In this document: positions 2,971 through 60,708 of the stretch, in pieces
Layout of the letters: each line of letters begins with the position of its first letter
Numbering within the stretch: position 1 is the stretch's first letter
NCBI GenBank assembly: GCA_023053545.1
Contig: JAKZAN010000006.1
Span: forward strand, 7,259,001-7,323,000
DNA from: Lepidurus packardi
Lineage: Eukaryota > Arthropoda > Branchiopoda > Notostraca > Triopsidae
Direction: 5' to 3'
DNA length: 64,000 bases
Translations under genes and position numbers: made by a program
The notes under the pieces: model-generated
Told to the model about the DNA's origin: nothing
The model's database searches: none
The model's input: only the letters and a program-made list of their open reading frames with translations

Positions 2971-4044
2971 ACTTAAACAAAAAATCAAAGAAGGAAGAAA
3001 GCCTTTCTCACCGTCGAAAACGAAGCGATTGACAGGTTTCGTACCGTCAGGTGTTATATAATGACCGCAACTCAATAGATTTACAATGGTGGTAGAAAAA
3101 AGTTTATCGTTTTCGCGCTCATAACCTCTTTGGATAAGATCACTGTACAATAGAATATCAAAGTTAAACGGAAACCGATATTTCCTCCCTTTGCCAATGT
3201 GCAAGTTTTAGCTCAACGGTGTGTACGTACATACGTACCCATGAATGGGTTACAAAAGGTTAGTGCGTTTATGAGTAGTCGTTCATACATTTATATACTT
3301 CACGACATCCCCTTGGTAAAGCAAGTCTGTGGACGCCAAAGCGGAAGACTTAGCCTTCTTTCTTAATAAAATTTCATCGTAACAGAGAAATCTTGCGTTT
3401 TATTTGTGTGTAATACTGATAGTAGAAAGTAAATTTCCGTGTTTACGTACCGTTTTGAAGACTTCATTCCACTAAGGCATAGCTATCACTCTTTTTGCAT
3501 TTTGCATGGTCAAATAACTCTCCGTCTACATTTCACAAGTTTATGATTTATTCCGTCGTCCCGTTTATGGGCGCGAAAGCAAGCCTAGTAAAGCCCTGTT
3601 TGAAGATTCGCCGCAGCAACACAGTGCAAATAGATGTTGGCGCCACTCTACGGAATGATGCTTGATGAAAGCTATCCAATAAAAACTAAACTGGATTAAT
3701 TAAATTCCAATAGTCCTAATACTCTTGTTAACGTTGACTAATTTGATACGAGAAATCATATTTTAAGAAAGTTGAATAAATATTCCCAGTTCCGAAAACT
3801 GGCTCTTTGCCCGTCAACCGCCTCCTTTCGGAGAACTGACAGAGCACACCCTCTTTCCTGTTGTTTTTAGAGCGGCGTGGACTGAAACTGAAACAACAAT
3901 TCACTCTGCAACCGAAAACAAGAAGAATAACAAATATCATCTTCGTACTCTAAACCGAACTTAAAAGTTAGATACAAGATATTAAGTTTGACCACTATCT
4001 TGGGTAATATTGTATACCGTATTGCATTAAACATTTTATTTTCT

Positions 4045-5608
4045 ATGTTGAAAGGAACGAGCAACTGTCAACAAAAGATGCCAAATTCTACAGCAAGCCA
4101 AGATTCTGATTCTGCCAATGTAACAACTAAAATCGAAGAGGAGGAAAAGGAACATTTTCAACGTATTATCAATGCTTTCAAGCACTACAAGTAATTTAGC
4201 ATCAGTGATTGTTCTTTTAAACATTAAAGTTGCCGGTAATTGATATTGTTGTTTCTTTTTTATAATTAATTATATATATAGGCATCATTCCCTCCAAAAG
4301 TTAGCCAAGTCTGATCGCTACTTAAAGAGCCTACCTACTCAGCACCAAAAGCTGCTTTCTGGTTACCAAGACCATTTGTCGACCTTGCGAGTTTGTGTTG
4401 AGCACAATTATGAAATCATCAACCTAATGGTTCATGATGTGGCTTCTCTATTTGAGAATGTTAAACACAACCCTGATGAAGTACAGTAATCTATAATGAT
4501 TTTTCTTTTTAAAAGAAAATATAGTAAGTTCAGATTTTTATTTAGAAGAAGCTCTCTGTACAGCCTACTGGTGGCGATATGGAAAAAGTTCAGTCAACCT
4601 TAAAGCAAATAGTCAGAGATTGGAGCTCGGAAGGTGCTAATGAAAGAGAAGCATGCTACCAGCCCATCCTTGATGAAATTGCCAATTATTTTCCTGAGAA
4701 TGAGAATGATCTTGCTGATATTCAGATTCTCGTACCTGGAGCTGGACTGGGAAGATTGGCGTATGAAATCGCAAGACGTGGGTATAGTTGCCAAGGAAAT
4801 GAGTTCAGTCTCTTCATGTTATTTGCTTCAAATTTTCTACTCAACAGGTAAACTGTTTTTCTTTACCCCTAAAATAGTGAATTTTTATTAACTCCTTTCT
4901 CTATACGTTACTTCGTGCAGGGTTCAAGGGGTTGACACGTACCGCGTTTATCCATGGGTCCATCAAGCGGTGAATAATATGGAAACGACGGATCAAAGTA
5001 GGCACTGTTCATTCCCAGATATCGACCCTTCTTCTGGCTTACCAAAGCACGCTCAGTTTTCTATGGCTGCCGGAGACTTTCTTGAGGTAATTTCAAATTC
5101 GTTTTCAATAAATCGTTTTTATTAGATTAAACATATTCTATAGGTATACACGGAAACCGATTGCTGGGACTGTGTTGCGACGTGCTTTTTTATTGATTGT
5201 GCCAACAATATTGTGGCATTTATTGAAACCATTTACAATATTCTTAAGCCAGGTACAGAAGCTGCCTATTATACTTACGGAATAATTTAAGGAAAATTTG
5301 TACAGGTGGAGTTTGGATCAACTTGGGTCCATTGTTGTACCATTTTGCGGATATACCGGGCGAAAACTCGATTGAGCCAGCCTATGATGTCGTAAAACGT
5401 ATTATACAAGGTGTGGGTTTCCTCATAGAGGTAAATTTTCCCTCTTGATTGAAGCATTTTTTATTAATATATCTTTGTATAGAAGGAGAAAACCGGCGTT
5501 CACACGATGTATGCCCAAAATCCTCGCTGCATGCTAAAGTATAGCTATGACTCTGTGTTTTTTGTGTGCAAAAAACCTGATACCATTGTTAAGCAGATTG
5601 CGTGGTAG
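4045..5608 (+). CDS. CARNMT1: Carnosine N-methyltransferase (N2227-like family), left-contig copy
   Basis: Seven GT-AG exons: 4045-4190, 4282-4480, 4546-4847, 4921-5086, 5144-5252, 5306-5430, 5483-5608. All phases are compatible and give 390 aa (human CARNMT1 is 409 aa). The enzyme transfers a methyl group from S-adenosylmethionine to carnosine, giving anserine. Seen in the translation: an acidic N-terminus followed by [18 protein letters not shown], the SAM-binding stretch [20 protein letters not shown] near residue 170, [32 protein letters not shown], and [18 protein letters not shown]. These match the N2227 family in order. A second in-frame ATG lies at 4078 and would shorten the protein by 11 residues; I cannot decide between them. 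Identical in sequence to 26526-28089 and probably the same gene. Confidence 0.93.
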
Positions 5609-8600
5609 TTTTGAGTCATTAACTATATTTTCTCGTATTTGCACTTTATACTTGTACAAAAGTACATGACGTGAACTTCTTTTTTACCCCGTTTTCGTTG
5701 TGCCTTCTTACAACCCAATGGCATTTCTTGGCTATAAACAGCGTTCTTTCATTATTGCTGAGGTACGTTCCGCAGGGTTGTAGACGTCACATCAAGATTG
5801 TGAGTAAAGTTTGCAAATAGGGTTCGGGAAATTTAGCCCCAAAGGCTATATAGTGTAAACATAACCGATAGGTGGCAGCTTGGGCTAGAAGGGATGACAT
5901 TGAAGCCAAGAGCAAGACGTTTGTTGTGTGAAAATAAGTAGAAGTGGTGCAAATCCTGTAAAGGTTGATTTGCGTATCACTGTGAACCAGTAACAGATCA
6001 TGGTAAGTCTTTTTTATTTTTTTTAATTTATGTGCAAATATAGTAAGCTTAGTTCTGAGTTGTGGTTAAGCTAGCAATTTGGCTAGCTTTACACTTAACA
6101 TAATTAATCAGCATGAAAGAAAATTGCAGAAACGAAAACTTGCCTTATTATTTATGGCGTCATAAAACATTGACTGCAGCTTGGTGGGTCTAGCACATAC
6201 ACATACATTTTTAATGAGCTGCTATGCGAAGTACTAAATGGGCCTCTACTTCCCTCGCCATGTTTTGTGTAAGTTGCTCTTTTCCCTTCCTATCTGTCTT
6301 CAGGGCAAGACCTTAGCAACAGTGCTAACTTATAAGATGCATGGACCATTTTCGTGAAGATGCATGAAGGATTTCAAACTCAGCAGCAGGCTAAAACAAT
6401 ATTTTTATTTATTTAGAAGAATATTACAGAATAAATGTATGTGGAAGATAGCTATCAAGCTTTGATATTATTATTTTATGTAGTAAGTGGTATCCAAATT
6501 ATTTTTTTTTCTGTAAGTGTGTAATTAAAGCTATTGTTAGCACGTTTACGTGTTTAGAATCGTGTAGTTTTAAAAAAAAAAAAAGAATTACTTGCGTTGC
6601 ATGTCAATTATGAGGTTGTGTTGTCTTGTAAGAAACGGTGAAACAAAGCTTATATAATAACCTCTGTTGGTTTCTTTAACTTGATTGTGACAGTCAAGTT
6701 ACAATTTTCTAGTGCGGCTTTTCACATATGTAAAGCGTTTGTATTAAAAGTAAAATTGCGGGCTAGGTCGTGCAGTTTCTTTTAAAAATCCAGGTATCGC
6801 AGGTACCGACGTTTAGGGGCCTCAAAGGCCTCGGGTTCTTTTCTTTTGGCTATCGTACCAGTCTTGAGCTGGTTCCCGGTACCTTCTATTTTACCTTCTA
6901 GTAGCTTGCATCTTGGGAAATCCCTGGATGAAAATAATGTTTCAAAACTTGGGGAGTCCAGACAAAGCATACAACTCTCCACAACTCTAGAAAAGCCACG
7001 GAACAAGGACAGCCGTTGTCTGACCTCTTTGGGCCAAATTCGACATCGTTGTTAATTCTTTGTCAGGCACTGTCACAGTGCCGGTAGGCTAATACCCCAG
7101 ACTTAATAATCTAATGAGGTCCCTTTTATGCGACACCTTGCGGTATTTCATTAACATGCTACACTGTTGCCTGTATTAACTGAAGCTACAGTTCCTTAGT
7201 CTAGAGTGATTCGCAATGAAAGATGCAATAATATATTTGATATCCCTGCAAAGGCCTATGCTACTTTTAAATATAAAAAACATTCTTATTATTAATACTA
7301 CTACTACTTGTATTATGAGTGAGTAGTTATTATTATTAATAGTTATATTATTAGTTATTTTCTATGTTGCTATGCAGCATAGAAAAGCATGGCTAAAGAC
7401 TGTTGAGGTTTGTCCCACTTGTAGTATTTGTGAAAGGTGAAAGTCACCGTCATATTAAAATAGTGAGCGGGTAAAAGCAGCAAGACGATGCCGCAAGTGA
7501 ACGATACGCTATGAGCAAACCTGACACAACTAGGGCATACATAAGAACAATTTCGGGAATTATCTTCTTTTGCTCAACGACGTAATTCTTTAATAAAGAG
7601 GGAAGCAAACCAAACTGACTTAGCCACAGATAACTTTGGACACAGCATATGACTTGGGACGGGTTGTACTTTAATACTTCACTTTTCTGCCTTGTTTATT
7701 CCTGTTTCTCGTATCACTAATGTTGCTGCTCTTGTTTTGTATTCCAGGACGCCTGCACACGTGTTCTTTGGTTGAAAACGCCGCGTGACTGTCCAGTCTC
7801 CGCTTAGGCTGCGCACCGAGTAGATGCCAAAGCACGTGGGAAAGACCTGACTTCTCCGTCTTCTGCTTTTTAGTTTACCGGAAAAAAGTCTTTCTTGCAG
7901 TCAGGCTAATACTGACCCTGAACCTTTGCATTGCGAAATAACATTGATGACACGTGCGCCTAGGAAGCAAAAGTACGTCTGTACAACCCTGAAGCTCAGA
8001 TCCTCTTGCAAAGTATTTCGACACTTCTGAACCCTTTAAAAGCATTGTCCAGTACGTGGGTTCTGTCAGAAGCAACTCGACGACTTGGGTGAACTAGTGA
8101 TCGGTGTTTTTTTTTTAAAGTGCAAAGAATTGGGGACATCGTAAGCTGTCGTGTTTGATCGTGATGTGGGGTACTTCATCAGGTCAAGCAGGGTCGTTGC
8201 TCGGCCTGGATGCTGGAGCCGACGTGGAAGACACGCCGGATGCAAAGGAGTTGGAGCCGGTGACCTTAGGTCACAGGCTTGCGAGACGGTATCGAGGTAG
8301 CCACCAGGTCAATGACCGTAGCTTCTGTCTAAGCCAGAAGAACCTTGGCCGTGGACACGCCTACGAGCTCTGATCCAGTGTTGCGGACTGACGCACCGCT
8401 TCGGGGCTAAACCGCGTATTCTCATGTGTCGTGTTCTTTTAAACTGAAAAAAAATTGCGTGATTCTTTAGAAGACGTGACCTTTAAACACATTGAAACAC
8501 GACAAGGTCGTGTAGCAGTTGCGTTTAAAAAAAAAAATCTGCGTATGTTCGCCGTGCCATTTTTTGTCTTTTAAAACCTCATTTGGAATTCAATTCATGC

Positions 8601-8771
8601 AACCTTACATGCCATATGTAAAGTAGAATCAATATCCCAGATTGATTCTCGCGAACTCATGTGCTAAATTGCATAGAACCGTACTGGGTCCCCTAATTGC
8701 CATCCATCAACCTGTTGGAATTGCTAGGGTTTTCACTTCAAATTTCTGATTTGTACCAAAACAACGAGAAC
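5609..8771. other. Spacer between CARNMT1 and gem, left copy (also 28090-31252)
   Basis: No recognisable coding exon lies here. It contains a possible 5' exon whose ATG at 6000-6002 is followed directly by a consensus donor GTAAGT at 6003. It also has an AT-rich triplet-repeat patch (TAT/TTA, about 7270-7360) ending in a near-perfect short palindrome at 7359-7385, and poly-T/poly-A runs. A good acceptor (TATTCCAG) at about 7741-7748 suggests that non-coding 5' exons of gem may lie within it. All of this recurs in the right copy. Confidence 0.5.
7359..7385. repeat. Short palindrome (12 bp arms, TAT loop); also 29840-29866
   Basis: Arms TTTCTATGTTGC and GCAGCATAGAAA pair with one mismatch across a three-base loop, at the end of a TAT/TTA-rich patch. 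It could be a tiny remnant of an inverted-repeat element; no function is evident. Confidence 0.5.
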
Positions 8772-11700
8772 ATGCAAGGCGCATATGCCAAAGGGAAGCA
8801 AAGCTCAACAATGCCTCGCCGGACGTCGTCATCGTCGTCTTTGGCTCGCGGACCTCGGCCAGCCAAAGCTCCCAATGTTGTTGCTCCCGCCTCACCCAGC
8901 CCTGATTCATCGAGTGATAATGCTTCCGATAATTCCGATCTATTCCCATGGCCCACAACTATTGATAGCGCAACGGTGGGCTTACTGACTGGGCGGAACC
9001 CTGTTTCGTCTTCATCGGCGACCACTTCGACCTCGACAGCCAGAATGTTGGCCTCTTCTTCCAGCGCCTCTAGCTTGGCATCTCTGACCGCATCTCGTAA
9101 ACGTAAACTTTTGGAACAGTTCTTACTCCCTGACGGCGACGTAACAGGTAACATTGACAATTACAAAAATAACAATAAATAAAAAAATTTGAAAAACTTG
9201 GTTTTGTTATTTTCATTTACTTACAACTGGATATATCTATTTGAAAAAAAAAAATTAACGTGGATCTGAATGGCTGTTCCAGACCTACGCAGTGTCGCGT
9301 TGACGACTCGCCCCATGCAACCGCCCCCTCCACTGGTTGTCAGCCCCTCTTCACGGGAAAATGTTCAACCTATAACCACTTACGCCACATTCCCTGTTGA
9401 ACCCGTTTTTAGTTCTCAATACCAAATGCCTTTGACATCGAACTCAGGTCTGGGAGCCAGCAACTCGGCCAATGGAAGTACGGAATCGCTGGCTAGTACC
9501 GTGGATTCCATCTCGGTACATGATCCGCTGCGTGTTGATGAAGTGGAGCTCAGCACGGACCATATTCATCTTAACAGACATCCCGGAGACGGCGGCAAAG
9601 ACACGCATAATCAGAGTAAGGATTTTGTTTTCTTTATTGGGGTTATAAAAACATAAGGAAATACGCAACTTGGGTCCCCAGGTGCTAAGACGAAAGTTGA
9701 AGTACCTAAAGCGTGTCTGTCAATGATAAAAACGATATTACAATGCCGATTATCAACTTATCAGGGATTAGAAGATACATGTAGTTTGACTTGCTTAGAT
9801 TGTGACGTTTTGATTTATACGTTTGGCCCTTTTATTGGCGCCAGTTCCGCGTACAGGTACAACGTAGGTATAGATTCTGTAGAACGTAGAAAGCTATGTT
9901 TTGTTCTTTTTTTATTTGATTTTTTTTTTCCGCGTGAAAGGAACGTCCTTGATGTCACTGTACTTTTTGTCACTGTACGAAGGGAATTACTTTGACGTCA
10001 GAACAAGGAAAAAGGTGTAAAATCATGCGACTGCTGTTGGTTGGGGGATAGAAAGTAATTTTGGACTCTTTTCTTTTTTTTTTTTTGGCTCGTTTAACTT
10101 TAACGTAAGCGAATGAGGTACGTTTGCAGGGACTTTGCCCCCGGGTCCATGCTCCCTTTTTCCCTGCGTAAAGAACGAGGGGAATAATAATTAAAGAAAA
10201 AAAAAAACAACGAAGTGCTGTTGCTGGGCAAAAAGAATTGCGAGTTTGGCTAGCATGCGAAATGGCAAAATGAGTCAGAAGTTCCAAGAATTTGTGCTTA
10301 GAGTTGTATGTAAATGATTGGAATGGAAATTATAGCCTCACGTAGCTAATTGGTAGCTGTGTTGCGAAAGAGGCGTTTCATTTCTTATTTTATTCCGAAT
10401 TTTTGGGTTGTAAATAACTTAAGCTAGATTATTAAAACGAAACACAAGGCAAAGGAAGTCATTGTTATGAACTGTCACGCAGGCGCGACATGTTAATTAT
10501 ACACAAAACAAAAGTTGAAATTTGGGGAAGGACTGCATTACGATATTATGTTCGCATTTACAAAGTTAAACGTTATTTTTCCTTTGGAAGATGATGTAAG
10601 GGTAGCACATTTGATCTTTCCAGGTGCAAGCATGAATTCCGTTCACCGTGTAAATGCTTGGCCTATGGGAGATTCCGAAGATATTGATGACAACCTCGCT
10701 GCAGATTTCGACGGCAGCTTATCGGGATTGGGCGTGGATTTGAGCGTTGCTTCCTATAACATGAGGTGACTGACTACTTTTTCTTGTTTTTTCCCCCCGT
10801 TGTGAAAGCTATTACATAAGCAACACGTTCTCTGGATTTAGTGACACACGCATCTAATATATCCCGCTGTCAAAAATGACACTAGTGTGTCAGTTTCGAA
10901 CAATGATTTTTTTTTCAGCTAATGAAGTGAAAGAAAGTACAAGTGTTAATTTAGGTTAACCTAACCTAAGCTAAAATATTCTAATGCACTTCTAATCCAA
11001 CTACCAATTTTCAACTTGATTGACACCTGTTTGTCATTCTTTTTCGAGAGAATATTTTGCAACAATAGGACACACAAGTGTCACTTTTGAGCTCCGTGTT
11101 TCCAAACCGGAGAACCTGTTGTAAGTAAGCGTGCGTAACCTGGCACCCTCTGTTGCCCATCAGTCGAGTTAGGGGGTAGATCCCCAAAAGACGCTCGATT
11201 TCTCATTGTGTTCAACTGATCTGTGTTTAAGACAAGTAGTATGTGGAGAGGTTAACATGGGGAACTGCGACTAACTTCGTGGACGCTGTTTAGCAAATTC
11301 TATGAGGAATCACATAATTAGGCATTGTCAACGTTTAGCACGGGCGTGCTCGGATGCATTGGTTTCGTGTTAGTTTGTTTCACCTCTTTCAGCCAGTGGT
11401 TTTTGAGCGCTTGCGTGTTCACGTTTCTTGATACGAAATTCTCGGATTTTTGTCCAGATTTGAGGGAGACGACCTTATTAGTTGTACTTTTTAAATTGGC
11501 GTACCTTAACTTTCCTTTTTAGCAGATCACAAACACACAGAAGGGTACTTAGCTAGGTGGAAGAGGTGGGTACTTGCGATGGTATACGCTGATTGTAGAA
11601 AAACCCTTCCAGAGGGATTTTTGGCTTCTTTCGCTGCCTCCCTTTAATGAGATACCGTTTTTTAATGGTTTGGTCTGAGAAATTGTTAGGTTTCTTGTCA

Positions 11701-14700
11701 TTCTTTAGGTCGGGAAGTAGACAGATATAAGCAAAAAGAGCTACATTGATTAGCATAATATGGCAGTGCTGTTCAGACATTCGGCGGCCCTCCTGTCAAG
11801 TAGGCATAACGAATTTCAGCAGCATCCCTAAGTTTAAAGTCACTTATTGAGCATATCCTAGGGGTTTCGAGTCTCGTGCTACCGAGGTTCTCTACCTTAG
11901 TTGGTGATTATTCCTTATTTAGAGGTAGGGAGCATCTTCTTTATCCAAGATCAACGGCAAGATAACGAAGTAATTAACATAAGCTTCCTCCGGATGTTGT
12001 GTATCATGGACATTAACTGCCAGCAGCAGGGGTCTCGTTAAGGTTTCTTGCGATTTCCACCTTAATGAGTCACTGAAGCTCTCCACACGGGAGAGGAATG
12101 AGCTATTGTGAAACTTTGTCACAGTGTCTTCCTTCAATATTAACGAAGTACTACAAACTGGTAGTCTTACATTGGCAATCCGATTGGAAGCTATGAGATG
12201 TTTGCTTCACAGTTATGAAATGCTTAATAACAATTTTGATTCGGTTTCTCTTAGCAGTTGTCGGCTGTAATTAATGGGGAACATTCGTCGTTGTCATTTC
12301 TTGTGGGGGGTTTTAACCATGGAATCTTTAGTGTTCGAGAAGCTTTCCGCTTAATTCTACATCTAAACCACCTTGCATTTTATAGCGAATCCGTCAACAT
12401 TATTTTAACCACATATAAGAGAGAATATCCGGTTAACAAAGGTGTTGGACAGATGCGGTTAGATTCTGTTTCATGTTAAGCCAAACTGGAATTTGCTTGT
12501 TTTTACGTCAATAGTCTTGGACTCGCTCTTTAAGGGAGGATTAAACCAGATCAAGTACTGTACTTTCCAGATACCAGATACTGTAATTTAATGTTAACAA
12601 ACTTCAATCGGAGAAAGGGACCTGTCCTGACAAATTTCTAATTAATTTCCCTTTTAAGTACCGTAGTATTGTTGTAACTAGTTTGCGCAGCTATTTTTAA
12701 TCTTTTTTTTCTGGAAAAAGCTTCGAGGGGCTCTCAATGGAGCGCTTTGAGATCAGAAAAGGGGGCGGAGCTAGGAAAGATCCAACGACATGGGGCTCTA
12801 CAACCTTCGAGTCCAAGTGAAGAGTTGGAACACGTAGTCTTTGATCACAGAACCAAAGGTAGCTTCGGTATGTTCCCAGTCTGAACTTTGTCGGATACGT
12901 TGCTACAAGTGACCTGGTGAAAGCGTCCGCGTATTTATTTACTGTGGCAGCCATCACGTGATGTGGGGCTATCATTCGGAAAACAACCAAGAACGTTGGT
13001 TTCGGACTAAACCGTAGTTTCGCGGAATAAAACGCCAGTGAATTTCGCGGCCTTAAAAAAAATCCAACCGATTTTATCCTTGTACTGTTTTTTTTTCAAG
13101 GAAACTTCGGTTGAGAATTTTTTATACTTGTCTTTGCTTCGGCACCCCTTGCATTTAAGAAGAAAAGTTTGCATTTAAGAAGAAAAGTGAACCAACTATT
13201 TTAACTGTGATTAAAAGCCAGTTTGGTTTGTCTTAGAACAGAATCGTATTCCATAAGTATTACTTTTGCATTTGCGGGCTGATCTGCTTCAAAACTGAAG
13301 GTACACGCTCAAACACACACACACAACATAGTACACAGTCACTTGTTATCGGCGAAAACAGCGATTCGGTCAGACCGGTTCACAGTTTAAACGCACGAAA
13401 AGGCCGTTTTGTGACTTTTCGTAGTATCTTTACTGTAAAAGGCCTGCCCGGAAAGCCTGTGGAGCTTTGAAAACAGTTTGTGACGTAAACAAAAAATACA
13501 TTAAAAAGCTTAACCGATCTTGTTGTTGGAATTCTGTATCGCAGCTCATATCAACTCGGTCCAAAACGCCTGCCAAAGTGGCGCCTTACCCTTTACCACC
13601 GCGTGGCAGTAATGCCAAAGCTTACCAAGCCAACAATCCAGGAGTGATGCAGAGTTACGCCCCACCCAACTCTTCAGCTCATTACTTGCCTCCTAACATG
13701 CCTTCTCAGACCTACCCTTACGCTGATTACCCTAATGCGAACCCGTACCCTTCCCCTGGCTATCCTACCTCAACATACGCGTACTCGGGCAACCCTCGGC
13801 ACCCTTATCGCAATTCCAATTACTTGTCCTCGACGGTAGCTCTGGATTGGAGCCGGAGAAAAGTGAGAAGTCCACCCTGGCAAACCGCTTCGCCATGGGA
13901 GATTGAGAAGTGAGTGTGCCTACATTTTGTCATAGGGATAGGGAGGGGTAAACGACTCGTGAATTGACTTTTCAACGAACCAAAGGATCTTACACGCAGG
14001 CAACTTGAGAGAATCATGTGCGTGGAAATTGAGGACGGTGGAAGCTAAGGTGTTCAGAGTGTGTCACTTAACCAAGTAATTGACATTCTGGCCCACGTTT
14101 GTGAGGCCCCTCGAAACTGCCCAAAGCTATACGAGTATGTTTTTGGTTGGTGCAACCAAGCGCGTCTTGGGAGTTTGGGACGTTGAGCTTGGTATACTTT
14201 TGCAGGGAGAAAGATATGAAGAGGAAAAATCACTTTATTAGGGGGCGTAAAGCACACCTACAAAGCAAGAGAACGTCATCAGAAGTGTAGATGCTTTGTT
14301 AGATTTTTAATCAAATCCGGATTTTTCAGGAATTATCAGCAAGAAGGGAAAAGGAAAAAGATCTCTCGTCGCTAATTAGTCATTCGTGAGATGGTCACTG
14401 TCGGCATATTGCTTTAATTTGCTTTAATTTTTTTTTTCAGTGAGGCTTTGTTGGCTCTTCCTTCATTGACGGTGTTTAAGCAAGAAGCGACGTCGCCCAA
14501 CTGTGATAATGGGTAAATTTCCAAATTTTAGTATATTTTATACAAATCTTTTTCAATATTTTTTCAAATATATTTTAACTTCAATGTATGTTCACTTCTG
14601 GGGTGTTTGCCTTTGTAGTCGTGTGGGTGTGAATGCTTCAGGAGAGCCAAACATGGTACGAAACCAAAGCCATTCTTTCCATCAATTATTGCAGCAACAG

Positions 14701-16889
14701 GCGTCCGGCTCAAGCGTGAACGGACCGATTGGAGAAAGTTTGCGAATGGGAGGCGATGGGGGGACCGGTAGTGTATCGAGTTTGACGTCTTCATCATCCA
14801 ACGAAGGATTGGGTGGGCCTGGACCTTCTCCAAACACGCCCACGACTCGAATAAGTACTATGGACAAGTATAGCAAATTTGAGCGCTTGAATGAAGCCGA
14901 CGCCAATGCGGATAACAGGTGTTTATTTATTTTTTATTGAAATATGTTTTTATTATTCCAGAAAGGCTTTTTAATCAGTTTATGTTTAGGTTTTTGTACG
15001 TCTTGTCCGCGTCGACCTCCATTGCGAGCAAAGTGAACGAAGAAACGCTAACGTACCTAAACCAAGGACAATCATACGAAATTAAGCTGAAAAAACTTGG
15101 GGATCTTTCCGGGTTTCGAGGGAAATACTTAAAGGTGTTATTGTCTATTTTCTTTTATCGATTGAATGGGGTTTTTAATCGATTTTTTTATATACACTTT
15201 TTTATATACAGAGCGTAGTGAGATTATGCTTCCATGAAAGGCGGTTGCAGTACATGGAGAAAGAGCAGATTGCTGCGTGGAGACAAACAAGACTTGGTGA
15301 CCGCATTGTGGAAGTCGACGTCCCCTTATCGTATGGCATATACGACGTCATGCAAGATCTCCAACTACTCAACGTGGTGGAGTTCGTTTGGGATCCAACG
15401 AAAGAAGTTGGCGTTTATATCAAGGTAAATCCTCGTCACCCGCATCCTGAGGAATAAGAAACTAAAAGGTATTTCTTCGATTTTGTAGATTAACTGTATT
15501 GGAACCGAATTCACCCCCAAGAAGCATGGCGGGGAAAAGGGAGTGCCCTTCCGCTTGCAGGTTGAAACCTACGCTCATGGAGACGAGGATGGTACACCCA
15601 AACGGTTACACGTAGCGGCATGTCAGATTAAAGTGTTCAAAGTAAAGAATCCTTCCAAGTCTTACAAAGAAAAGTCCGTTTTTTAATTTTCGGTAATTTT
15701 TAGTTGAAAGGCGCAGATCGCAAGCACAAGCAAGACAAAGAGAAGCTGTTGAAAAGACCCATTTTAGAGCAGGAAAAGTATCAGCCATCCTGCGTGTGTA
15801 CTGTCCTGTCAGAGGTACGGGTTTTGAAAATGTGTTCAAGTTGCTATTTGTTTAATTTCAGAGATTTTTTTATTTAGGTTCCCTTGGATTCAGTGTACAG
15901 TACAGTGAGCGCTCCTCCAGCTACGACATCTATCCCTACGACTGTGACGACTGTGAGCACGGTCGTCAGACCAAACGCCAACCCGGCTGCTGCCAGACAT
16001 TACAGTGGAGAATACTTGTAAGTCTTGGATAATTTCTGGAGTTAGTACTTGGAAGAGCTAACACGGTATGCCTTTTAGGAACGACGTCTGTCATGAGAGT
16101 AGTCCAGCAGTGCTTGACCCAAATGGCACCGATAGTCCAGTAAATGAACTAGTCTTGCTACCTTCTGTAGTTTCTAAAGTTGGCGTGACATTTTTCCAGA
16201 GTTCCATTTTTAGTGGAAATCCATCCGTCTACCAGTTCTATTTGCAGCCCTTACCCGTGGACACCACTGCGCAGCAAACGGCCCAGTGGCTGCAGAGCAA
16301 CAGGTTCCAGTCGCTGACACGCACTTTCGCACATTTCGCGGGCCCGGACATTCTTCGTCTTTCCAGAGACGATCTCATCCAGATCTGTGGATTAGCAGAT
16401 GGCATTCGCCTTTTCAATGCAATGCATGCCAAGTACCGAAACTATAATGTTATTAATTATTTTTGGGACATTGAAAGTTAATGAAACTTTTTGTTTACAT
16501 CCTTTTAATAGAGCTTTAACCCCACGTTTGACTCTTTATTTGAGCTACCTTGACAGCCAGCCGTCAGCTTTCCATGCCATATACCTGGAATCGTTAACTT
16601 CGATGGAACTCGTCTCCAAGATTTCGGTCTTGGTGCAAGGAGGTGGTAGCAACGATACTTCTTTAGCGCTCTATACCCAGGGTCCTTCTGGAATTCATGT
16701 TATTGTCACGGATGAAGTGGTGCATAACTTGAAGGATGAATCCATTTGGACTTTGGAGGTTATCCAAAGTAACGTGCTTTTGAAGCAGCTGTATTCTCAT
16801 TTACATATTCTATAATTCTATGATTTGTAGGTGACGATGGAAATATGTTCCGCGTTCTCTTGAAGCCCGCACATGCTCCTGAAATGTAA
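8772..16889 (+). CDS. gem: CP2/LBP-1 family transcription factor (gemini/TFCP2-like), left-contig copy
   Basis: Thirteen exons with matching phases: 8772-9147, 9283-9615, 10624-10765, 14441-14512, 14619-14918, 14990-15134, 15212-15424, 15489-15641, 15704-15814, 15878-16017, 16079-16432, 16512-16768, 16831-16889; 884 aa. Residues 1-240 are Ser/Pro-rich and probably disordered. DFDGSLSGLGVDLSVASYNM + SEALLALPSLTVFKQE (about 270-300) matches the conserved TFCP2 N-terminus. The CP2 DNA-binding domain (about 405-620) contains NEETLTYLNQGQSYEIKLKK, FHERRLQYMEK, PKKHGGEKGVPFRLQ and KGADRKHKQDKEK. A SAM-like domain (about 715-780; DDLIQICGLADGIRLFNAM) and a C-terminal ubiquitin-like oligomerisation region (GPSGIHVIVTDE) follow. 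The DNA-binding sequence is of CP2/LBP-1 type rather than grainyhead. AATAAA lies at 16936. Start chosen as the first ATG after the in-frame stop at 8694. Confidence 0.92.
13149..13188. repeat. 20-bp tandem duplication (two copies); also at 35630-35669
   Basis: The unit TTGCATTTAAGAAGAAAAGT is present twice head-to-tail within the large gem intron. It is probably a replication-slippage product with no known role. Confidence 0.7.
13647..13909 (+). CDS. gem: Probable alternative first coding exon of gem (also 36128-36390)
   Basis: Inside the 3.7 kb intron between gem exons 3 and 4 is an open frame rich in Pro, Tyr, Ser and Asn (for example MQSYAPPNSSAHYLPPNMPS). It ends at a consensus donor, GTGAGTG, at 13910. 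The frame leaves two bases, exactly what exon 4 (14441) needs, giving ...ASPWEIEN-EALLALPSL. The upstream junction from exon 3 does not stay in frame through the nearest acceptor (about 13544), so inclusion as an internal exon is unlikely and a separate promoter is favoured. Vertebrate TFCP2L1 also starts with a short divergent segment directly before the same conserved 'LALPIFKQE' block. The start at 13647 is the first in-frame ATG I found, and transcript evidence would decide. Confidence 0.55.
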
Positions 16890-19674: not shown

Positions 19675-19703
19675 CACACAAACACACACACACATATATA
19701 TAA
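19675..19703. repeat. CA/TA microsatellite (also 42156-42184)
   Basis: A short CACACA run passes directly into TATATA. The two copies have the same length, consistent with their being the same locus. Confidence 0.8.
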
Positions 19704-21699: not shown

Positions 21700-21730
21700 G
21701 TGTGTATGTGTGTGTGTCTGTGTGTGTTGT
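21700..21730. repeat. GT-rich microsatellite (also 44181-44211)
   Basis: Interrupted (TG)n tract with TATG and TCTG variants. Same length in both copies. Confidence 0.8.
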
Positions 21731-25347: not shown

Positions 25348-25351
25348 CTAC

Positions 25352-37200: not shown

Positions 37201-39370
37201 ACGGACCGATTGGAGAAAGTTTGCGAATGGGAGGCGATGGGGGGACCGGTAGTGTATCGAGTTTGACGTCTTCATCATCCAACGAAGGATTGGGTGGGCC
37301 TGGACCTTCTCCAAACACGCCCACGACTCGAATAAGTACTATGGACAAGTATAGCAAATTTGAGCGCTTGAATGAAGCCGACGCCAATGCGGATAACAGG
37401 TGTTTATTTATTTTTTATTGAAATATGTTTTTATTATTCCAGAAAGGCTTTTTAATCAGTTTATGTTTAGGTTTTTGTACGTCTTGTCCGCGTCGACCTC
37501 CATTGCGAGCAAAGTGAACGAAGAAACGCTAACGTACCTAAACCAAGGACAATCATACGAAATTAAGCTGAAAAAACTTGGGGATCTTTCCGGGTTTCGA
37601 GGGAAATACTTAAAGGTGTTATTGTCTATTTTCTTTTATCGATTGAATGGGGTTTTTAATCGATTTTTTTATATACACTTTTTTATATACAGAGCGTAGT
37701 GAGATTATGCTTCCATGAAAGGCGGTTGCAGTACATGGAGAAAGAGCAGATTGCTGCGTGGAGACAAACAAGACTTGGTGACCGCATTGTGGAAGTCGAC
37801 GTCCCCTTATCGTATGGCATATACGACGTCATGCAAGATCTCCAACTACTCAACGTGGTGGAGTTCGTTTGGGATCCAACGAAAGAAGTTGGCGTTTATA
37901 TCAAGGTAAATCCTCGTCACCCGCATCCTGAGGAATAAGAAACTAAAAGGTATTTCTTCGATTTTGTAGATTAACTGTATTGGAACCGAATTCACCCCCA
38001 AGAAGCATGGCGGGGAAAAGGGAGTGCCCTTCCGCTTGCAGGTTGAAACCTACGCTCATGGAGACGAGGATGGTACACCCAAACGGTTACACGTAGCGGC
38101 ATGTCAGATTAAAGTGTTCAAAGTAAAGAATCCTTCCAAGTCTTACAAAGAAAAGTCCGTTTTTTAATTTTCGGTAATTTTTAGTTGAAAGGCGCAGATC
38201 GCAAGCACAAGCAAGACAAAGAGAAGCTGTTGAAAAGACCCATTTTAGAGCAGGAAAAGTATCAGCCATCCTGCGTGTGTACTGTCCTGTCAGAGGTACG
38301 GGTTTTGAAAATGTGTTCAAGTTGCTATTTGTTTAATTTCAGAGATTTTTTTATTTAGGTTCCCTTGGATTCAGTGTACAGTACAGTGAGCGCTCCTCCA
38401 GCTACGACATCTATCCCTACGACTGTGACGACTGTGAGCACGGTCGTCAGACCAAACGCCAACCCGGCTGCTGCCAGACATTACAGTGGAGAATACTTGT
38501 AAGTCTTGGATAATTTCTGGAGTTAGTACTTGGAAGAGCTAACACGGTATGCCTTTTAGGAACGACGTCTGTCATGAGAGTAGTCCAGCAGTGCTTGACC
38601 CAAATGGCACCGATAGTCCAGTAAATGAACTAGTCTTGCTACCTTCTGTAGTTTCTAAAGTTGGCGTGACATTTTTCCAGAGTTCCATTTTTAGTGGAAA
38701 TCCATCCGTCTACCAGTTCTATTTGCAGCCCTTACCCGTGGACACCACTGCGCAGCAAACGGCCCAGTGGCTGCAGAGCAACAGGTTCCAGTCGCTGACA
38801 CGCACTTTCGCACATTTCGCGGGCCCGGACATTCTTCGTCTTTCCAGAGACGATCTCATCCAGATCTGTGGATTAGCAGATGGCATTCGCCTTTTCAATG
38901 CAATGCATGCCAAGTACCGAAACTATAATGTTATTAATTATTTTTGGGACATTGAAAGTTAATGAAACTTTTTGTTTACATCCTTTTAATAGAGCTTTAA
39001 CCCCACGTTTGACTCTTTATTTGAGCTACCTTGACAGCCAGCCGTCAGCTTTCCATGCCATATACCTGGAATCGTTAACTTCGATGGAACTCGTCTCCAA
39101 GATTTCGGTCTTGGTGCAAGGAGGTGGTAGCAACGATACTTCTTTAGCGCTCTATACCCAGGGTCCTTCTGGAATTCATGTTATTGTCACGGATGAAGTG
39201 GTGCATAACTTGAAGGATGAATCCATTTGGACTTTGGAGGTTATCCAAAGTAACGTGCTTTTGAAGCAGCTGTATTCTCATTTACATATTCTATAATTCT
39301 ATGATTTGTAGGTGACGATGGAAATATGTTCCGCGTTCTCTTGAAGCCCGCACATGCTCCTGAAATGTAA
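31253..39370 (+). CDS. gem: CP2/LBP-1 family transcription factor (gemini/TFCP2-like), right-contig copy
   Basis: Exons: 31253-31628, 31764-32096, 33105-33246, 36922-36993, 37100-37399, 37471-37615, 37693-37905, 37970-38122, 38185-38295, 38359-38498, 38560-38913, 38993-39249, 39312-39370 (884 aa), identical to the left copy. The family binds DNA as oligomers and regulates developmental and cell-cycle genes in the nucleus. The N-terminal 240 residues have no vertebrate TFCP2 counterpart. Vertebrate TFCP2 starts close to the region encoded by exon 3, where an in-frame ATG exists at 33113. A large intron (33247-36921) separates exon 3 from exon 4 and holds a likely alternative first exon. The polyadenylation signal is at 39417. 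Same single gene as the left copy if the contigs overlap. Confidence 0.92.
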
Positions 39371-42300
39371 GTTGTAGAGCAGCATTATTTTGCCAAGGTT
39401 TTTGTCATTAATTCTTAATAAAGGGTTTATACTGTACAAGGGGACCAAGGAGCTAAGGAGATGTAATGGTTAGTAGTATTAGTGGAGTTGGAGATTAGAC
39501 GTGAGCTAATGTGCGAGTAGAGTCAAATGTGGAACGTTGCTTTATTAGTGTTGAGACTGGAGTTGCCATGCACAATGGCAGTATTGGAGTGCCTTTACCT
39601 TGTCAGGCAATCTAAGTGGTTTATTTGGATTACACTGTCAAACAAAAGATTTTCCAGCTTGTAGTTTCGTAGCGTCCGGCGTGTTATCCGTTCGAAGGAA
39701 ACGATCTTCGATTCGTTTTGATTTGCGATATAATGACAAGCATACGAGCTCCTTGTAATCAGCATATGTGTACCTTGCCATGGCATTTAATGAACATTGG
39801 ACAATGTGCTGTTTCTTTGAGAGTATTGTGATGATGGGTCTCGTATCGGAGGGGTTTACTTGCATAGCTCGCATTACCTGTATTATTTTTTTTATATTTC
39901 TTTTTTCTGGTACATACGCTGTTTTGTCCGTCCCCTTCGCTGTTATCGGCTATTTAGTTTTTCTTCAATAAAAATGTTCTTAAATCTCAAATGTATTCAT
40001 GTATGGTACCGTTAAGAGAAAATACCCGTTCATAAATAATAATTTTAGAAACAACATAATGAAAGGTCACAACCCTAACTTAATCCATCAACGAGACAAC
40101 AGATCCTTTACAGCCTTGGATGGCACATTGTTAATCGACTACGAGGTATAAGGCTCCAGGAGGAGAAAATAAAATTGGGAAAGTCTGGGAAATTACTGTC
40201 ATCCTAGAAGAATTTCCTTAGTGATGCGGGTATGACGCCATCTAGTGCACACTGTGCATAATAGCAAAGATGAATGTTTGGCAAATGACCATTGATAGTT
40301 CACCACGTTGATTGTGATTATGTATTTCTGCAGATGTTGAGGTAAGATCGTGTTTTTTCGTTTCTTTGGAGTTCCTGCCCCAGTTGACGTACTTTCTGAA
40401 AAAGTCGAAGTTTGTATACGCGAATGAGATCAATTAGCGATATAGTCGAAAATTGACAATTGATACGTTCTCTTTGTTTATGAATATATTCGCAGTATAA
40501 TGCAACATAAAACGTTGCAGCTCTTTGAGGTGAGCGCATCAAAAGGAGGCCGGTTTCTCTTTTCTGCAAAAACCCACGCTTTACTATTCTGTTGCAGGCC
40601 GTTTTATTGACGATCGAAAACCTGTCGAGGCTAGCCGTGTCGTTTTAGTGTGTAATATTTCCAAGCTTCGTTTCGCCTTGCTTTATAAATTCTGTAGTGA
40701 TGTGTCTTTAGCTGGGATATAACTACTTCAATTATATAAATAGTAAAAATATTCCTATGTAGAAACTTTGCGATTGGAGTAAAGGAATAAAGGAAATCTC
40801 GGAATAAAGGAAAGTTATAATTATCCTCTAATTATAGAATCATAGCTAGAATATTTTAAAACTATTCGAAAATCAAAAATATTCGAAAATTTGAAGAATG
40901 CAACTTGAATGCAAGTTGCAATTTGAATGGATTTGAAAATATTCTGGCCACTATATTAGCTAGAATATTTTCAACAAATCAGCAATATATTTCAACAAAT
41001 TAACCACAGTTCCTTTGGAACATTACTTCGTAGTGTACTGCAGAACACTATTACAAAGTAGTGTTCGAAAGGAACTGTGGTTGATTTGTTGCCCAGGCTC
41101 TTAAGAGCAGCTATTTAGTGGAGCTAAATTGACGGAAGCTGTTTGAGCTTGTTGCTTCCTGAGCATTTACAGGGATTCGCTTGACTTGAACCTCCCTTTA
41201 AAATAAAGTTGCATTTTACTTTCCCAGTGCAGAAAAATGTAAGTGCAACTTGGGGTGCTTTTACCGTGGAAACCTTTTGCATGAGAAAACCTTTTGGGCC
41301 TCGCTGCTCAATTAATTATCACGAACCCCAGTGTAATACTTGCCCTCTTATTTGCCGCTCGGGTCCCGCGCGCTATACAGCCTCATCGCGTGTATTAGCA
41401 AAAATCAGGTTAACTCTTGGAAAATGAGTTAGACTCTTTCCTCAATGACTCCCAATTCAGAAGTTGCCTTCGCTGAACTAGCTCTTTTCTTTCCAATACT
41501 TTGCCTATGCCGGAGTCTTCCCGAAAAACGGAACATTTCCATGTCCTGTGCCAAAAGTTTTTGTACCATTAAGAGCGCCAGTGAGCCCACTGAAAACCAG
41601 GTCTATGTCTATGTCTCTCTCTCTCCCTTTGCAGGTTCGTGTGTCTGCCGGAAAGATTTGTAACAATGGTTTCGATTGTATCAAGTTGATCCTCTGGGGA
41701 GATGTTCAATCATGACCGAATACTCCATGCGATCAAGACCTTTTTATCAGTGAGGTTTATATGGGAGTATAGAGAAAAGGTCTTGCATCTTATTTTCAAA
41801 GCGATGAAGGTTGCTTTATGGTAATTTGGTTGCTGAAACTATAAATGCCAAATGCTTGGCCAAAAGAGGCTTACCCTGAGCCGACTATCGGCGGGAAATT
41901 GGATTGGGACAGAGATTCTTTTGATTTTTCATTTTCGTAGGAAGATCAAGGGATGAAAAGTTGTCGTGCATGCCAATAGAGTCTTGATAGCTAGGAGAGA
42001 AGAAGGTTCCGAAGCTCAATGCATTCTCGCAGGAGTATTGTAGTATCGGGGGGATAGCAAAAAGGATTCATGGTTGGGCAAGGTTTATTCTATCGGCTCT
42101 TACTGACGGAAGAGTGTTTTGATTTTTGACTGTCTACTTGCTGCTATATGGACTCCACACAAACACACACACACATATATATAAATACAACATCAGTCGA
42201 CTCACAGCAATTCCAAGCTAAGGGACTTTTGCTTAACAATTTGGCCCCTTAAAAATAAAAATAAGTTATATTCTTTTGGTTGCTGGAAAGGAAGCTGAAC

Positions 42301-42860
42301 TCGTCATCTGTCATGTTGATATTTTTTCTCCCTCTGGCTTTTTATTTATTTTTCTTTCGCTATGAGCTTGTGTGTGTACAATTTTTAATTATGCAGAGAG
42401 GGCGATAGGCGATCAAGCGATGTGAAATGCTGGGTGCTATGGGAAATTGTCGTAGCGCCATGGTTTGAAGACTATTCTTTCCTTTTCTTATGTGGTTACG
42501 AGATACAAAAAAGCCGCTTAGAAGTAAAGAACCCGAGAGACTTGTCTGAGCAATAATCTCTATAACATTTTTTTTCCCCTCCGAAGGGTATCTATGTATA
42601 TGGCACGGCTTGCATTTCAAGTTGAGGAAAAAGAAATCCGCTTAAAGCTAATTATCTTGCATAAGTATCCCGCGTGAAAAGAGTTTCTGCTCCGTGGTTG
42701 TTAGTAAACGAAGATTATTGCTTGACAGGCGGAAAATCAGGGGGAAATAAACTATTTTTCAGAATAAGTCTATTCCTTTCAGACTCTTTGCTAACCCCCT
42801 CCCAACGTCTAATAGAAATGCGGTATGTGTTATTGGAAGTTTTGTTGCGGTAAATAAATA

Positions 42861-43620
42861 TAGTATATGCTGCTTATTAGAATCACTGGGTATTAGAATC
42901 AGCCCCTTTATAGAATCAAATTTTAAACTGCCGATTCAAAATGATAAAGTTCATGGCATTTTAATCCGTTATTAGAAACACACTTTTGGATATTATAATC
43001 AATTTCAAAAGAATCTTCGCATATACAGTAACGAAACTACAGAAGTGATTGCTACATGGACTTGTGCATATTGACCAATGACATTACGACATCGCTTTTA
43101 CGTCGTTTCGACCAATCTTGTCATTTCCAGCTACTATTACGCATAGGGGGAATTCCTTCTAAACTACATAGTCATTTAAATGAGCAAGTTAGTCAATTGA
43201 ATGAGAAATTCCTTTAATTGATTGGGGAAAATTAGAAAAGATATCGTATTAAGAATCCTACCTAAGCGTAGGAGTATGCAGTGTTAGTTGTGTTTAGACG
43301 TGTGGTTATATAAAAATGGCGACGAACAAGAAAAGAGTTGATTTAAATGCAAAAGTGAAGTCGCGGCTCATTGAAACTTATGACAAGACAAATTTAAAAG
43401 ATTTGCCACAAATTAAGCACGGTCGTTAAGTTAGGAATTCCTCAATCACTCTATCGAAATTGTTGACAAATCGTTAAGAAATAAAAAATAGTGGGAGTAG
43501 TGATTCTAATGGAAGCTACGACCTATCTATATGTGCACATGTAGGTACGTATTTCCGATTTTCGGTTATTAGAATCAATATTCACTTGACAAACGTGATC
43601 ACAATAAGCCGCATCTACTG
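42861..43620 (+). mobile_element. Decayed pogo/Tigger-type DNA transposon (short derivative), right copy
   Basis: The same element as at 20380-21139, with the same inverted ends, TA flanks and internal transposase-start remnant (ATG at 43316). It lies in the overlap and should be counted once. Confidence 0.65.
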
Positions 43621-46028
43621 TATATAAAGTTTAATCTTGTAGAGAGTTTAGACATTACTTGCCCATTTTGCCGCCGTGTAATTTTGCCGCAGATGGGGAG
43701 AAACAACACTTCGGCAGAAGATAGTTTATAATGGGGCCTTCACAATTCTACCCCGCAAGTTTTGAAGAGATTAAGGGCAAGCAATGGGCATATCAAAATT
43801 TTATGGGTCTCTTGTTCGGTGCCAGTTTTCTTTGAACGTTTTGATCACGCAAAGTTGTTGCATAGATTGCAATAGAAAGAGAAGCATACATCTCAATTTT
43901 GCGGCAATGCCCAAGCATCTATAGGAAATGGTTTTCAAATTCAATGCTTTACCCTTTCGCAACAACTCGATGTGGTGCTCTTTGAGCCCCCGTAACATTT
44001 TCCCAACCAAAGCAAGCCTGTGCGAGTAAAGTTGTGGTTGTTGAGGTGGTGGGGAAGGGGGCCAAATCAGCTTGGTGCAATATAGCAGAGCGTCTTTTAA
44101 TTCATGTGTTAAATAGTGGAAAAAGCAACGAAGCAGACTGTTTGTGCAGGGGTGGAAGCACACGCAGCTTTATAGGTATGGTGTGTATGTGTGTGTGTCT
44201 GTGTGTGTTGTATTGTGGGATAGGAGTTGTGTGAATACTTATCGGGGAGAAAAGTATCCGCCAAAACGTCTGGCATATCTTGGAAACGAGTTTCCGATGC
44301 CAAGCGGTAACAGAAAGAGCATGCATCGGTGGCCTGGTTTGCATCTTGGTATTTGTAGCGGAATAGTCTGCTCCTTGTTTGAACGGATTAGGCGTCGAGC
44401 AAGAGTTGTTGAAAAGGCGAGGCAGCAACCCCGGTGAGAAGTGCAACAGGTGAGGCGGATAGATTACACGTACATGGGCCTGCCGTCTATACACACGTGA
44501 AGAGCCTTTAATCGGCTGAAAAGTTGTCTGTATAGCCTGGAACAAAACCCGCATTTGCATACATGTTTTGACAACCGTGCAAGTTGCTCCCGTGAGCTCT
44601 TCTAGCTATTTGCATATGTTCCGCTGCAGGGTCTTAAATGTGGAGTTTGCGTCAAATTTATAGTTTAAAACCCAGTTTCTTCAATACCGCCCTCTCACAT
44701 GTCACCTATATACCCTTTACACTTAACTCTTTACACTTACACTTAACTTCTCTAGCCTGAAAAAAGTACTAGCCTGATAAATGTACGGACTTAACTTTTA
44801 AAAACGAAAAGCACGATCGTACACTTTATTAAGCAAAAGCAAATAGAGTGTTGGGGTGCTGAATACATGACACAAAGCTGATTCGGTGGTCCTTTCCTTC
44901 CTTCTGCTAACGGATCGAGGAAAAGAACCACCGAACGAAAGAAGAAATGGTTTGTCTAAAGCTGGCGTCCCTAACTGTTAGATGTGCTTATCTGGACCGT
45001 TGCGGTGAAATAGAGAAAAGGCCCGGATTTTTTTAATCGAGAAAAGGAAATGAAAAAGTGTCACTTGTCAGTCCGTCCTTAGCGAAACCCCCATCAGCAG
45101 TAGTTTACAGATTGGTTGCTTTTTTTTTTAGAGATTTTTACTATCTTTTTTAATTTCAAGTCCCGAAAAAGTAGAAAATTCCAAAAGCGCACAGATCTTC
45201 TGCTTTATTACCATGCCCATTATAGAGAGTTTTGTCCTCGGTAAGGCAGGAATCGGCTTTTACTCGCATGCAAAGTATATATTTAGAGCGGAGGAGAGAA
45301 GAGAAGGTATAAATGTATAAACCATAAATTTGTAATGACTGCCGTATGTCATGTATGCCAAAGAGGTTTGACTCGGGTCAGCTTGTGCAGTTAATGGGAG
45401 ACAAGGGAGGGGATCAAGATCAATAGAAAGTTTAACTTATGCCTACACATGCTGTTCCCAGCCTCCGAAATAGCTGTGGTAAAAGATCATTTGTATGACG
45501 TTGAGGAACTTTGGGCCGACCATTTAGGGGAGCCAAAGCACCATGCACAAGAGCATAATCCCATCGCTCCTATATCGTTACTTCCGTGTCCTGGAAAAGC
45601 GGATACAGATGGTGGGTTATACAATGGATCTCGCGAAAACCTGTACTATACATATACATACCTAGACATATATACCTTTCGAGAGAGTAGCGCCTTTTTT
45701 TTATTATACTGTTCCTTTATTATTGTTTTTATTTTTACGCATAAGGAAAGTTTTTGCAGGCGTCGTTGCTCATCTCTTGGCCAAGAACCACAGGGGGACG
45801 TTAAAGTAAAAGGAAGACTTTTATATAGGAGTGTGTTATAAAAGCGTTGGGATTAAGGGCGGCAGGGATGCTCGTAACTCCTCCTCTAACTCAGCTATCG
45901 TAATAAGATTCTGCAAAGCCGGCCATATTTCAGCTTCCTCCTGTCCCAGATAAGCCCACGCCAGCCCGATGCCGGCTGAAGATAAATCAGCGGATTAAAG
46001 GGCGCACAAGAAAGCACGGGGCCTCTTT

Positions 46029-46055
46029 CCCCCCCCCCCCCCCCCCCCCCCCCCC
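46029..46055. repeat. 27-base C homopolymer, right copy
   Basis: Same tract as 23548-23574 and the same length. It lies about 490 bp past the dve stop codon on dve's downstream side. Confidence 0.9.
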
Positions 46056-46540
46056 TTCCTTTTTCTCTGATGTCGGTATCAAAATCCTTCCTTCTAAGAC
46101 GCTCGAACACTTAATAGCCTTCTCAGCCAACATTATTCTTTACTTTCATCACAAGCTGTCGCTCTCATTCGAAAAAATTCCAACGCTTTCAACATTCATC
46201 CAAGTGTCTTTTTATTGTTCACAGCCAATAGGGGGATGGGATGGAACACCAAAGACTAGAGATTGCAGGAGAATACAGGTCTTTTTCCCATGAGCAGAGG
46301 AGTTCACTGGGATGGGGGGGCCAAAAACAAAACAAAACGGTTTTCCCTTTCTTATAATAACGAATCGAGAAATATATAGTTAAAAAGACGGTAACATTCC
46401 TTATAGACACAGTTGGAGCCGGTGAGTTTGTATAACAAGTTTTCCTTTAAGACTTTTTTAAGAGTTTCGAAAAATTTCGAATTATTAAGTACAACAACAA
46501 AACTGCGTTTTTTTTGGCGAGGAAGGGGAGCAAAAAAAGC

Positions 46541-49500
46541 TCACTGCGTAACATCTAGATCGAAGCTTCGTTTGTAAATCATGTTGGTGGGATTATCGAG
46601 GGACAGTTTGAGGCGTTTACATTTGGCCCGACGATTCTTGAACCAAAATTGCACGTTCTTGGGCTCCAACTTGGGGAATTTCTGACGGTAAGGTTGACGA
46701 TTGAGTTCGTCGGTGTAACGCAAAACCAGCGAATGCGAAGGGTGCGTATTGACAGCGAACCATTGCTCCAGCAAAGGCACTTCCGTTACGGGATCAATGA
46801 AAGTCCGATTGCGTTTACGGCGTTCGTCAGCTAAGCTGCTCAGCGAGTGCAGTCGCTGATGATGAGCTGACGACGATTGTTGTTGCAAGTTACTCAGGTT
46901 GGGCAAATAAGGCGACATGTACACCAAACTCTGACTCAGGATGGATTGGTGGTGATTCATCATGGCAGCCGCGGCCGCAGCCGTGGCCGCGTTACTCGAC
47001 ATGGCTGTAGCAGTCGAGGGAAACGTTGCAGCATTACTGTAACGTTGCTGCAACTCGTGGAGGCGTAAGTGCTCCGGACTTATCAATTCCGCGTGAGGAT
47101 TGGAACCCAAGCTTGACTTGAGGGTAAATAACGAGGATGACGTTGGAGGTTGCTGCTGTTGGGAGAAAGAAGGCGGGGACAGTAATTCGGTGCTGGTACT
47201 GCCGCAAGTACCCGGTTCTCGTTTGACGATGCTCAGGTTCTCGGCACAATTCGAAGTTCGGGACTCGGGTCGCTTATCTTCATCATCGGAATAGTCCACG
47301 TCGCTGTCACTGTGGCTGTAATGAGCTTCACCGTTCAAACTCGCGTAATGCTCGTCCTCCAAACTCTCGGCCAGGTTCGCGCCCAGCAAAGCCTCTTTTC
47401 CCGGCGTGTCAGACACATCAAGCGCATCGTCTTTGATTTCACATTTGACTTGATGGGTTTCAATACCGTCTTGGTCCATGGCGTCTGAAATGCGACGCTC
47501 GCCGTCGCGCCCAATTTCGTGGCAACGTTCGCGATCAGAACGTGGACTCCCCGAGCTGGATGACGAGGAATCGGCATCGAGAGGCTCCATGGAAGTGCTC
47601 CGGTCTTTCGGGTTTTCATTGTTGTCGTCGTAGTGGCCGTGGCTGTAGTCTAGGCTGTCGTGCAGGGGACTTTTCCAAGATTCCAGACCCGCGGGGCCGG
47701 TGCGCATCTCAGCCCGCTTAAAGGCAGCCCGGGCGTTTTTGAACCAGTACACAATATTAGCCACATCGAGTGGTTTGCGACCTCTCCGAGATTCCAGAGT
47801 GTTGAGTTCCTTCACATACTGTTGTATCTACATAAAGGAAAAATTGAGAGAAGAGGAGACAAAGAGAAATACATAAAATTTATAAAATGTATCAGACAGA
47901 AGAAAAGATACTAAAAAATTAAAATTGGTTGCAAGTCACTTAAGCAGATTTTTAGATTTTCGTGGAACAGCTCATTAGTGGCACTACAAGTGAGAAGGGA
48001 GTTAGCTCCGGAATTAGGGGTATGCAACGCACCGTTAAGCTGTAGACATGTATAAGCTGATTCCCCATATGCGGCCTTCTGCTTGCCTTGACGTCTTTAG
48101 CTGTTAAGGTGTTTTAAAGGTAATCCTATTTAGTTGCCCGAGTGCGTGGCATCTTCGTATGTATATGTATATACATATATACGCCCCAAAGCCCGGAAGG
48201 AGTAGAGAAAGGATCCCTTATCTGTTCCGAGTGGGGTGTATAATTCGGCAAAAGGGGAGAAAGGGTGGCGCGGTTTTGCACGGTGAGGTGGAAGAAACCT
48301 ATGCAATAGGATAAGTCGCTGGAAACTAACTTGTTAGTCTGCTCTGTGCCCAAGAACCCAGGCTAAGTTCCTCAAATCCGACGCCGCCTTTTCAAAGACG
48401 AGTATGACGGCGACGACGTCCGGAGAGAACCAGGACCTCGGCCCCAGACAATTGTGGGCTCCACCTACCCTGCTTCAACTTTATATTTATGCGCGATTCC
48501 TGGAGGAGTTAGGCAACTTGGGAGGTTTCATTTTTGCCGTTTGAATTTGCTTTTGCTTGTGTATAATTTGAACCTGTAACAAAGTCCTCCACAATCCTAA
48601 AGGTCTCTCTGTCTCTGTCTAAACTCGAAACAGGACTTTCGGAATTGCACCAACAATGTTTTGGTCGTGTTTTATCAAGAAAGTCTTGCCTTTCCAAACC
48701 AAGGACACAAAAGCACACGTAGCTTTGGGCCTTATTACAATTATGCTCCCGATGGGATGTCGAAGGATGCGATATGCTAGTCTATGTGGGGTCGCTTCGG
48801 CCGCTTGCTTATAAAGCTCATGTGTTGTGTACTGTCTTGTGTCTTCTGTCCAACCCCCCATCATGTGGAAAAGGCCAAAGAGATGGACAACTTGAGATGA
48901 GGACAACTTTATGTGGGCTCAACCCCCGACACTAACAGCGATAGTGCGGCTTTTGGACGCTTGCCTCTCGTTAGTTGGAGCATCTCGAACTCTCATCAAG
49001 CCTAATATTTAAAGCAGACGGACCAACTCTTGTTGTATGCATGCAAGGGGCCCAAGCAAAACTCATACAAGAGGACTGCTGACTCAAGCCCCCCAAAGTA
49101 AAAAACAGATGCTAATCATACCGCAGTTACCGCGGTTAGGAACTTACTTGGAGTCGTGAGGGATGCGGATTATCAGCAAACCATCGTTGCAGACGCGGGA
49201 GCTCCATTTCAGGATCAAAGCTGGTTCGCATACGAGTTCGGCCACATGGAGGAAAAGATTGAGCCAGGGGCTGTAATTTCACAAAGAAAATGTTGGGATT
49301 CATATAATTTCCTGGGTTTTCCAAGAGAGATAAAGCGAGAGAGAGTGAACGAAAATGTGAAAAAGGGGAGAGAGTTCTCTCTTACCTGGATGATGGTTTG
49401 TCCCGAGTCTAGGATTCGCGGTGATTTGGTTCCATCGGATAGATTAGTTTCTGTAACAAGAGTTGAACTGGAGGGGACGGTCGTTGCTAGCTTTTCCCAT

Positions 49501-57950: not shown

Positions 57951-60708
<2,758 letters not shown>

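Follow-up and report, generated by a model that had tools for sequence, protein, structure and literature searches.

The 22.4-kb doubling in the 64-kb window (the whole stretch of Lepidurus packardi DNA analysed here, 64,000 nucleotides, numbered as scaffold C5 minus 7259000) is almost certainly an unmerged overlap of two contigs that were joined by scaffolding, with one real locus behind both appearances, as judged from the assembled sequence. The first-pass annotation had read the doubling as a contig overlap and not as biology, and our analyses support that reading. The block forms the suffix of one contig and the prefix of the next around 100 Ns, its flanks are single copy, and the sequence of a second-copy junction is missing from both contigs. 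In addition, the gene dve (defective proventriculus) is complete in the right contig only, and the sole difference between the copies is a frameshifting indel near the left contig end. Coordinates are collected in Table 1.

We infer the following assembly and scaffolding steps. The locus would be present once in the genome, and the assembler would have put out two contigs whose ends share 22.4 kb of it. Scaffolding would then have set these contigs side by side with a fixed 100-N gap, without trimming or merging them, and hence CARNMT1, a gem-like gene, and the final dve exon would have been printed twice.

Table 1. Features of the doubled block and its surroundings, in window coordinates
Feature	Positions	Strand	Remarks
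Left flank	1..2970	.	Bases 971-2970 single copy in assembly
Left contig suffix, first appearance of overlapped block	2971..25351	.	22,381 bases
CARNMT1 (PF07942) matches, left appearance	4555..5433	+	
gem/TFCP2-like factor, left appearance	14982..16481	+	CP2-domain (PF04516) matches and SAM-bearing frame
dve last exon, left appearance	24060..25347	-	Frameshifted, severed from other exons
Extra base in left copy, sole difference between copies	24500..24500	.	CAGGCC versus CAGCC
Scaffold gap	25352..25451	.	Exactly 100 N
Right contig prefix, second appearance of overlapped block	25452..47831	.	22,380 bases
CARNMT1 (PF07942) matches, right appearance	27036..27914	+	Scores identical to left
gem/TFCP2-like factor, right appearance	37463..38962	+	PF04516 matches and SAM_3
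dve last exon, right appearance	46541..47827	-	Single open frame, 428 aa
Right flank	47832..64000	.	Bases 47832-49831 single copy; contains upstream dve exons, FAD_binding_2 (SDHA-like) frame, DUF4789 frame
Upstream dve exons	49145..50383	-	ULD domain and first half of first homeodomain; present once

Geometry and copy number of the doubled block

Comparison by BLASTN of all sequence left of the 100-N gap with all sequence right of it (cut-off E <= 1e-10) returned a single match, 2971-25351 against 25452-47831, with 0 mismatches and 1 gap (99.996% identity). At the gap, the limits of this match are the last base of the left contig and the first base of the right contig. The proposed identity of suffix and prefix thus stands insofar as the match reaches both contig ends, but the copies are not letter-identical, differing by one indel in the BLASTN alignment. 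The join of exactly 100 Ns was found as described (25352-25451) and is the sole N run in the window. The offset between copies, which had been given as a constant 22,481, holds that value up to position 24499 and drops to 22,480 over the final 852 bases, owing to an extra base at 24500 in the left copy; the unequal block lengths in the first-pass coordinates (22,381 and 22,380 bases) already implied this shift. Microsatellites and a 27-C homopolymer had been reported as equally long in both copies, as indeed are the 27-C run (23548-23574 and 46029-46055) and the 7 tandem repeats listed within each copy. The corrected locus length was likewise reproduced (64000-22381-100 = 41,519). A substitution-free match of 22.4 kb greatly exceeds what chance would be expected to yield, and chance similarity was ruled out as its cause on this ground.

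Copy number was examined in the assembly (108.6 Mb, 344 contigs), in which the window is part of the 12.5-Mb scaffold C5, using four query sequences, 1-2 kb long, from the two ends of the block and from each flank. The block-start query (2971-4971; 2,001 bases) and the block-end query (24352-25351; 1,000 bases) each matched two places in the assembly, both in the window, and yielded no third copy of the block. The left-flank (971-2970) and right-flank (47832-49831) queries, of 2 kb each, matched one place each. The block is therefore not a dispersed repeat, and with its two ends matching two places only, a transposon was ruled out as well. For the middle of the block, copy number was probed by way of two gene families, CARNMT1 and CP2, described below. 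Searches of the window for RNA families at the gathering score and for tRNA returned none.

Under a rival reading, the 22.4 kb were genuinely and very recently duplicated head to tail, and the junction fell by chance in the gap. The genome would then have CARNMT1 and the gem-like factor in duplicate, plus a stranded dve last exon whose frame is already broken. Sequence identity alone cannot decide between the overlap and such a duplication; under assumed mutation rates, identity would permit an age of up to roughly 7,000-24,000 generations. Moreover, an assembly may be interrupted where a long identical repeat begins or ends, which would account for the break here. The earlier argument that a tandem duplication would not stop at contig edges is thus slightly too strong, although the similarity does stop exactly at the contig ends, on either side of the gap, which counts against a duplication. 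The missing junction sequence is the better argument. In searches with 3 kb of each end, the passage from block end to block start was absent from the left and right contigs, and the block start and the block end each occurred once per contig, at their own places, the interior of the gap being unseen. If a second-copy junction existed, many reads would be expected to cross it and to carry its sequence into at least one contig, and the absence of that sequence argues against a real duplication. Long homopolymers such as the 27-C run are normally unstable, and the equal length of this run in both copies is a further point against it. On this evidence, we find a real duplication barely credible. 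The unmerged overlap has a point against it too, in that the contig edges sit in unique sequence; the contig break must therefore be due to something other than a known repeat, and this is the sole point that favours a real duplication.

Gene content and the single-base difference

The block contains CARNMT1, a CP2/SAM transcription factor (gem-like), and, of dve, the last exon only. Genome-wide, the CARNMT1 family (PF07942) gave 6 matches, which form 3 identical-score pairs, all inside the block. The CP2 family (PF04516) gave 14 matches, 6 of them in the window as 3 identical-score pairs, and the remaining 8, on C1, on C4, and elsewhere on C5, are unpaired. The CP2 domain together with SAM_3, which was searched on the right appearance of the gene only, fits a TFCP2/gem-like transcription factor, the name gem being that used in the first-pass annotation. 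That annotation had cautioned that any recent CARNMT1 or gem paralogues claimed from the window would be wrong, a caution that our reading of the block supports.

Identification of dve came from its relatives (best 120 of 449 proteins) and from tblastn of dve proteins on the window, in which at least 4 of the 8 queries gave matches. The ULD matches of dve occur once in the whole assembly, beyond 47831, and the exon with the first half of the first homeodomain occurs once in the window (tblastn). The right appearance of the last exon continues that homeodomain in frame (HPSRLQ/IQQYVKEL), and the intron between them is bounded by the splice sites GTAAGT and TATGTAG. The left contig includes only 4 bases of this intron before it stops, and the left appearance of dve is therefore an orphan last exon. 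The extra base at 24500 lies about 852 bases before the left contig end, within an alanine-rich stretch, and its frameshift leaves the second homeodomain of the left exon present but out of frame. Consensus near a contig end rests on few reads, and we infer that the extra base is a consensus error, made where read support for the left contig is poor, near its end.

Alternatively, the end of the left contig may derive from one parental haplotype and the start of the right contig from the other. Such a haplotypic false duplication would still be an artefact with one locus, but the extra base might then represent true allelic variation. Structures of this sort are known to arise where contigs of the two haplotypes overlap (PMC7203741; PMC6421076). 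However, the lack of any substitution in 22,380 bases would put the divergence of the haplotypes below about 1.3e-4, and an allele that breaks the reading frame of a conserved transcription factor is improbable; the extra base also lies near a contig end. Zero substitutions would be compatible with a very homozygous animal, and selfing is known in tadpole shrimps. Weighing these points, we regard a haplotypic origin as very improbable.

For users of the assembly, the unmerged overlap would mean that counts of CARNMT1 and of the gem-like gene are too high, and automatic annotation could label the left dve exon a truncated pseudogene. The right copy is the one to trust because its dve exon reads through. 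The doubling would otherwise be a commonplace assembly defect, of a kind already well described, and no real biological feature.

Extent of the probable artefact and other sequence in the assembly

Thirteen 10-kb stretches (9 + 4) were sampled for gaps on six large scaffolds, and another 100-N gap was found in 1 of the 13 (C2:8004214). On either side of it lies a copy of a dispersed repeat, the two copies being 99.96% identical over 10,027 columns. Because the copies begin differently and the left contig extends 13 bases beyond their shared end, this gap is of a different, repeat-caused type; as such, it is evidence neither for nor against unmerged overlaps as a habit of this assembly. A homeodomain survey of the assembly found one same-score, same-range pair among 101 matches, the dve pair itself. 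With only this pair twinned, the artefact seems local, which suggests that overlaps of this kind are rare or local in this assembly and not systematic. A protein-kinase survey was discarded as a test for doubling, with 128 of 988 candidates scored and 9 of 136 matches on C1-C6.

Several repetitive or unusual sequences were observed along the way. The C2 dispersed repeat (C2:7993941-8015212; L018, L006, and L019) is about 10.9 kb long by paired coordinates, has inverted, internally repeated ends, and carries a 200-aa frame whose tail is rich in Cys and His. For the kilobase adjoining the C2 gap on its left, there are 23 matches of at least 900 bases at 94-100%, that kilobase included. Four unplaced contigs (C7, C10, C12, and C15) are exactly 25,000 bases long, a size reminiscent of the debris pieces that a Hi-C misjoin corrector cuts off. 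In C100:1-10000 (L015), a stretch of 25.5% GC contains a long array that encodes KFQVKLQANFKEISL-type repeats. The L014 and L016 frames gave either no Pfam matches or matches due to repetitive sequence, which we disregarded, and the L015 frames are likewise repeats.

The assembly also appears to hold DNA of other organisms. In the kinase survey, 127 of the 136 matches lie outside C1-C6, and most of these carry in-frame TAA or TAG and few carry TGA. Ten loci (L028-L037, on contigs between C73 and C337) were chosen for their many in-frame stops. In 9 of the 10, translation of TAA/TAG to Glu (table 30, peritrich) gave a higher Pkinase bit score than translation to Gln (table 6); at the tenth, L035, the Gln reading scored 1.5 bits above Glu. 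These contigs are probably a large part of the genome of a peritrich ciliate, perhaps an epibiont, that was co-assembled with the shrimp. COX1 genes free of in-frame stops were seen on the unplaced contigs C52, C43, and C214 (L020-L022; loci of 41-66% GC), which are probably bacterial companions.

Many nuclear copies of mitochondrial COX1, with in-frame TGA, were observed as well (C6:697216; C4:0.78-1.54 Mb; C1:3.0 Mb; C2:0.11 and 1.55 Mb), several of them clustered on C4. The ND2 copy adjoining the one on C6 is open under table 5. Among the best 120 of 6,696 matches, its top ones are the ND2 sequences of Lepidurus apus apus and L. couesii, at 81% identity, placing the host among tadpole shrimps near Lepidurus.

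Comparison with known duplications and assembly artefacts

A paper on this assembly was not among the literature matches listed. The block resembles a real tandem segmental duplication in its head-to-tail copies of the same orientation; unlike one, it has no junction sequence in the two contigs and no substitution between copies, and its limits are the contig edges. It resembles the false duplications described by Ko et al. 2022 (PMC9516828), in which a gap between the copies is a hallmark: near-identical adjacent copies lie on one scaffold with an assembly gap between them and produce false gene gains. Cases of that class were proven there by read depth, k-mers, and discordant pairs, whereas the Lepidurus packardi case is known from the assembly sequence. 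Unmerged overlapping contigs after Hi-C scaffolding have been described for AaegL5 (PMC6421076), where adjoining contigs repeat one interval until an overlap-merging step is applied; the adjoining contigs here repeat one interval too. The copies in AaegL5 differ, reflecting undercollapsed heterozygosity, whereas those in Lepidurus packardi are identical but for one base.
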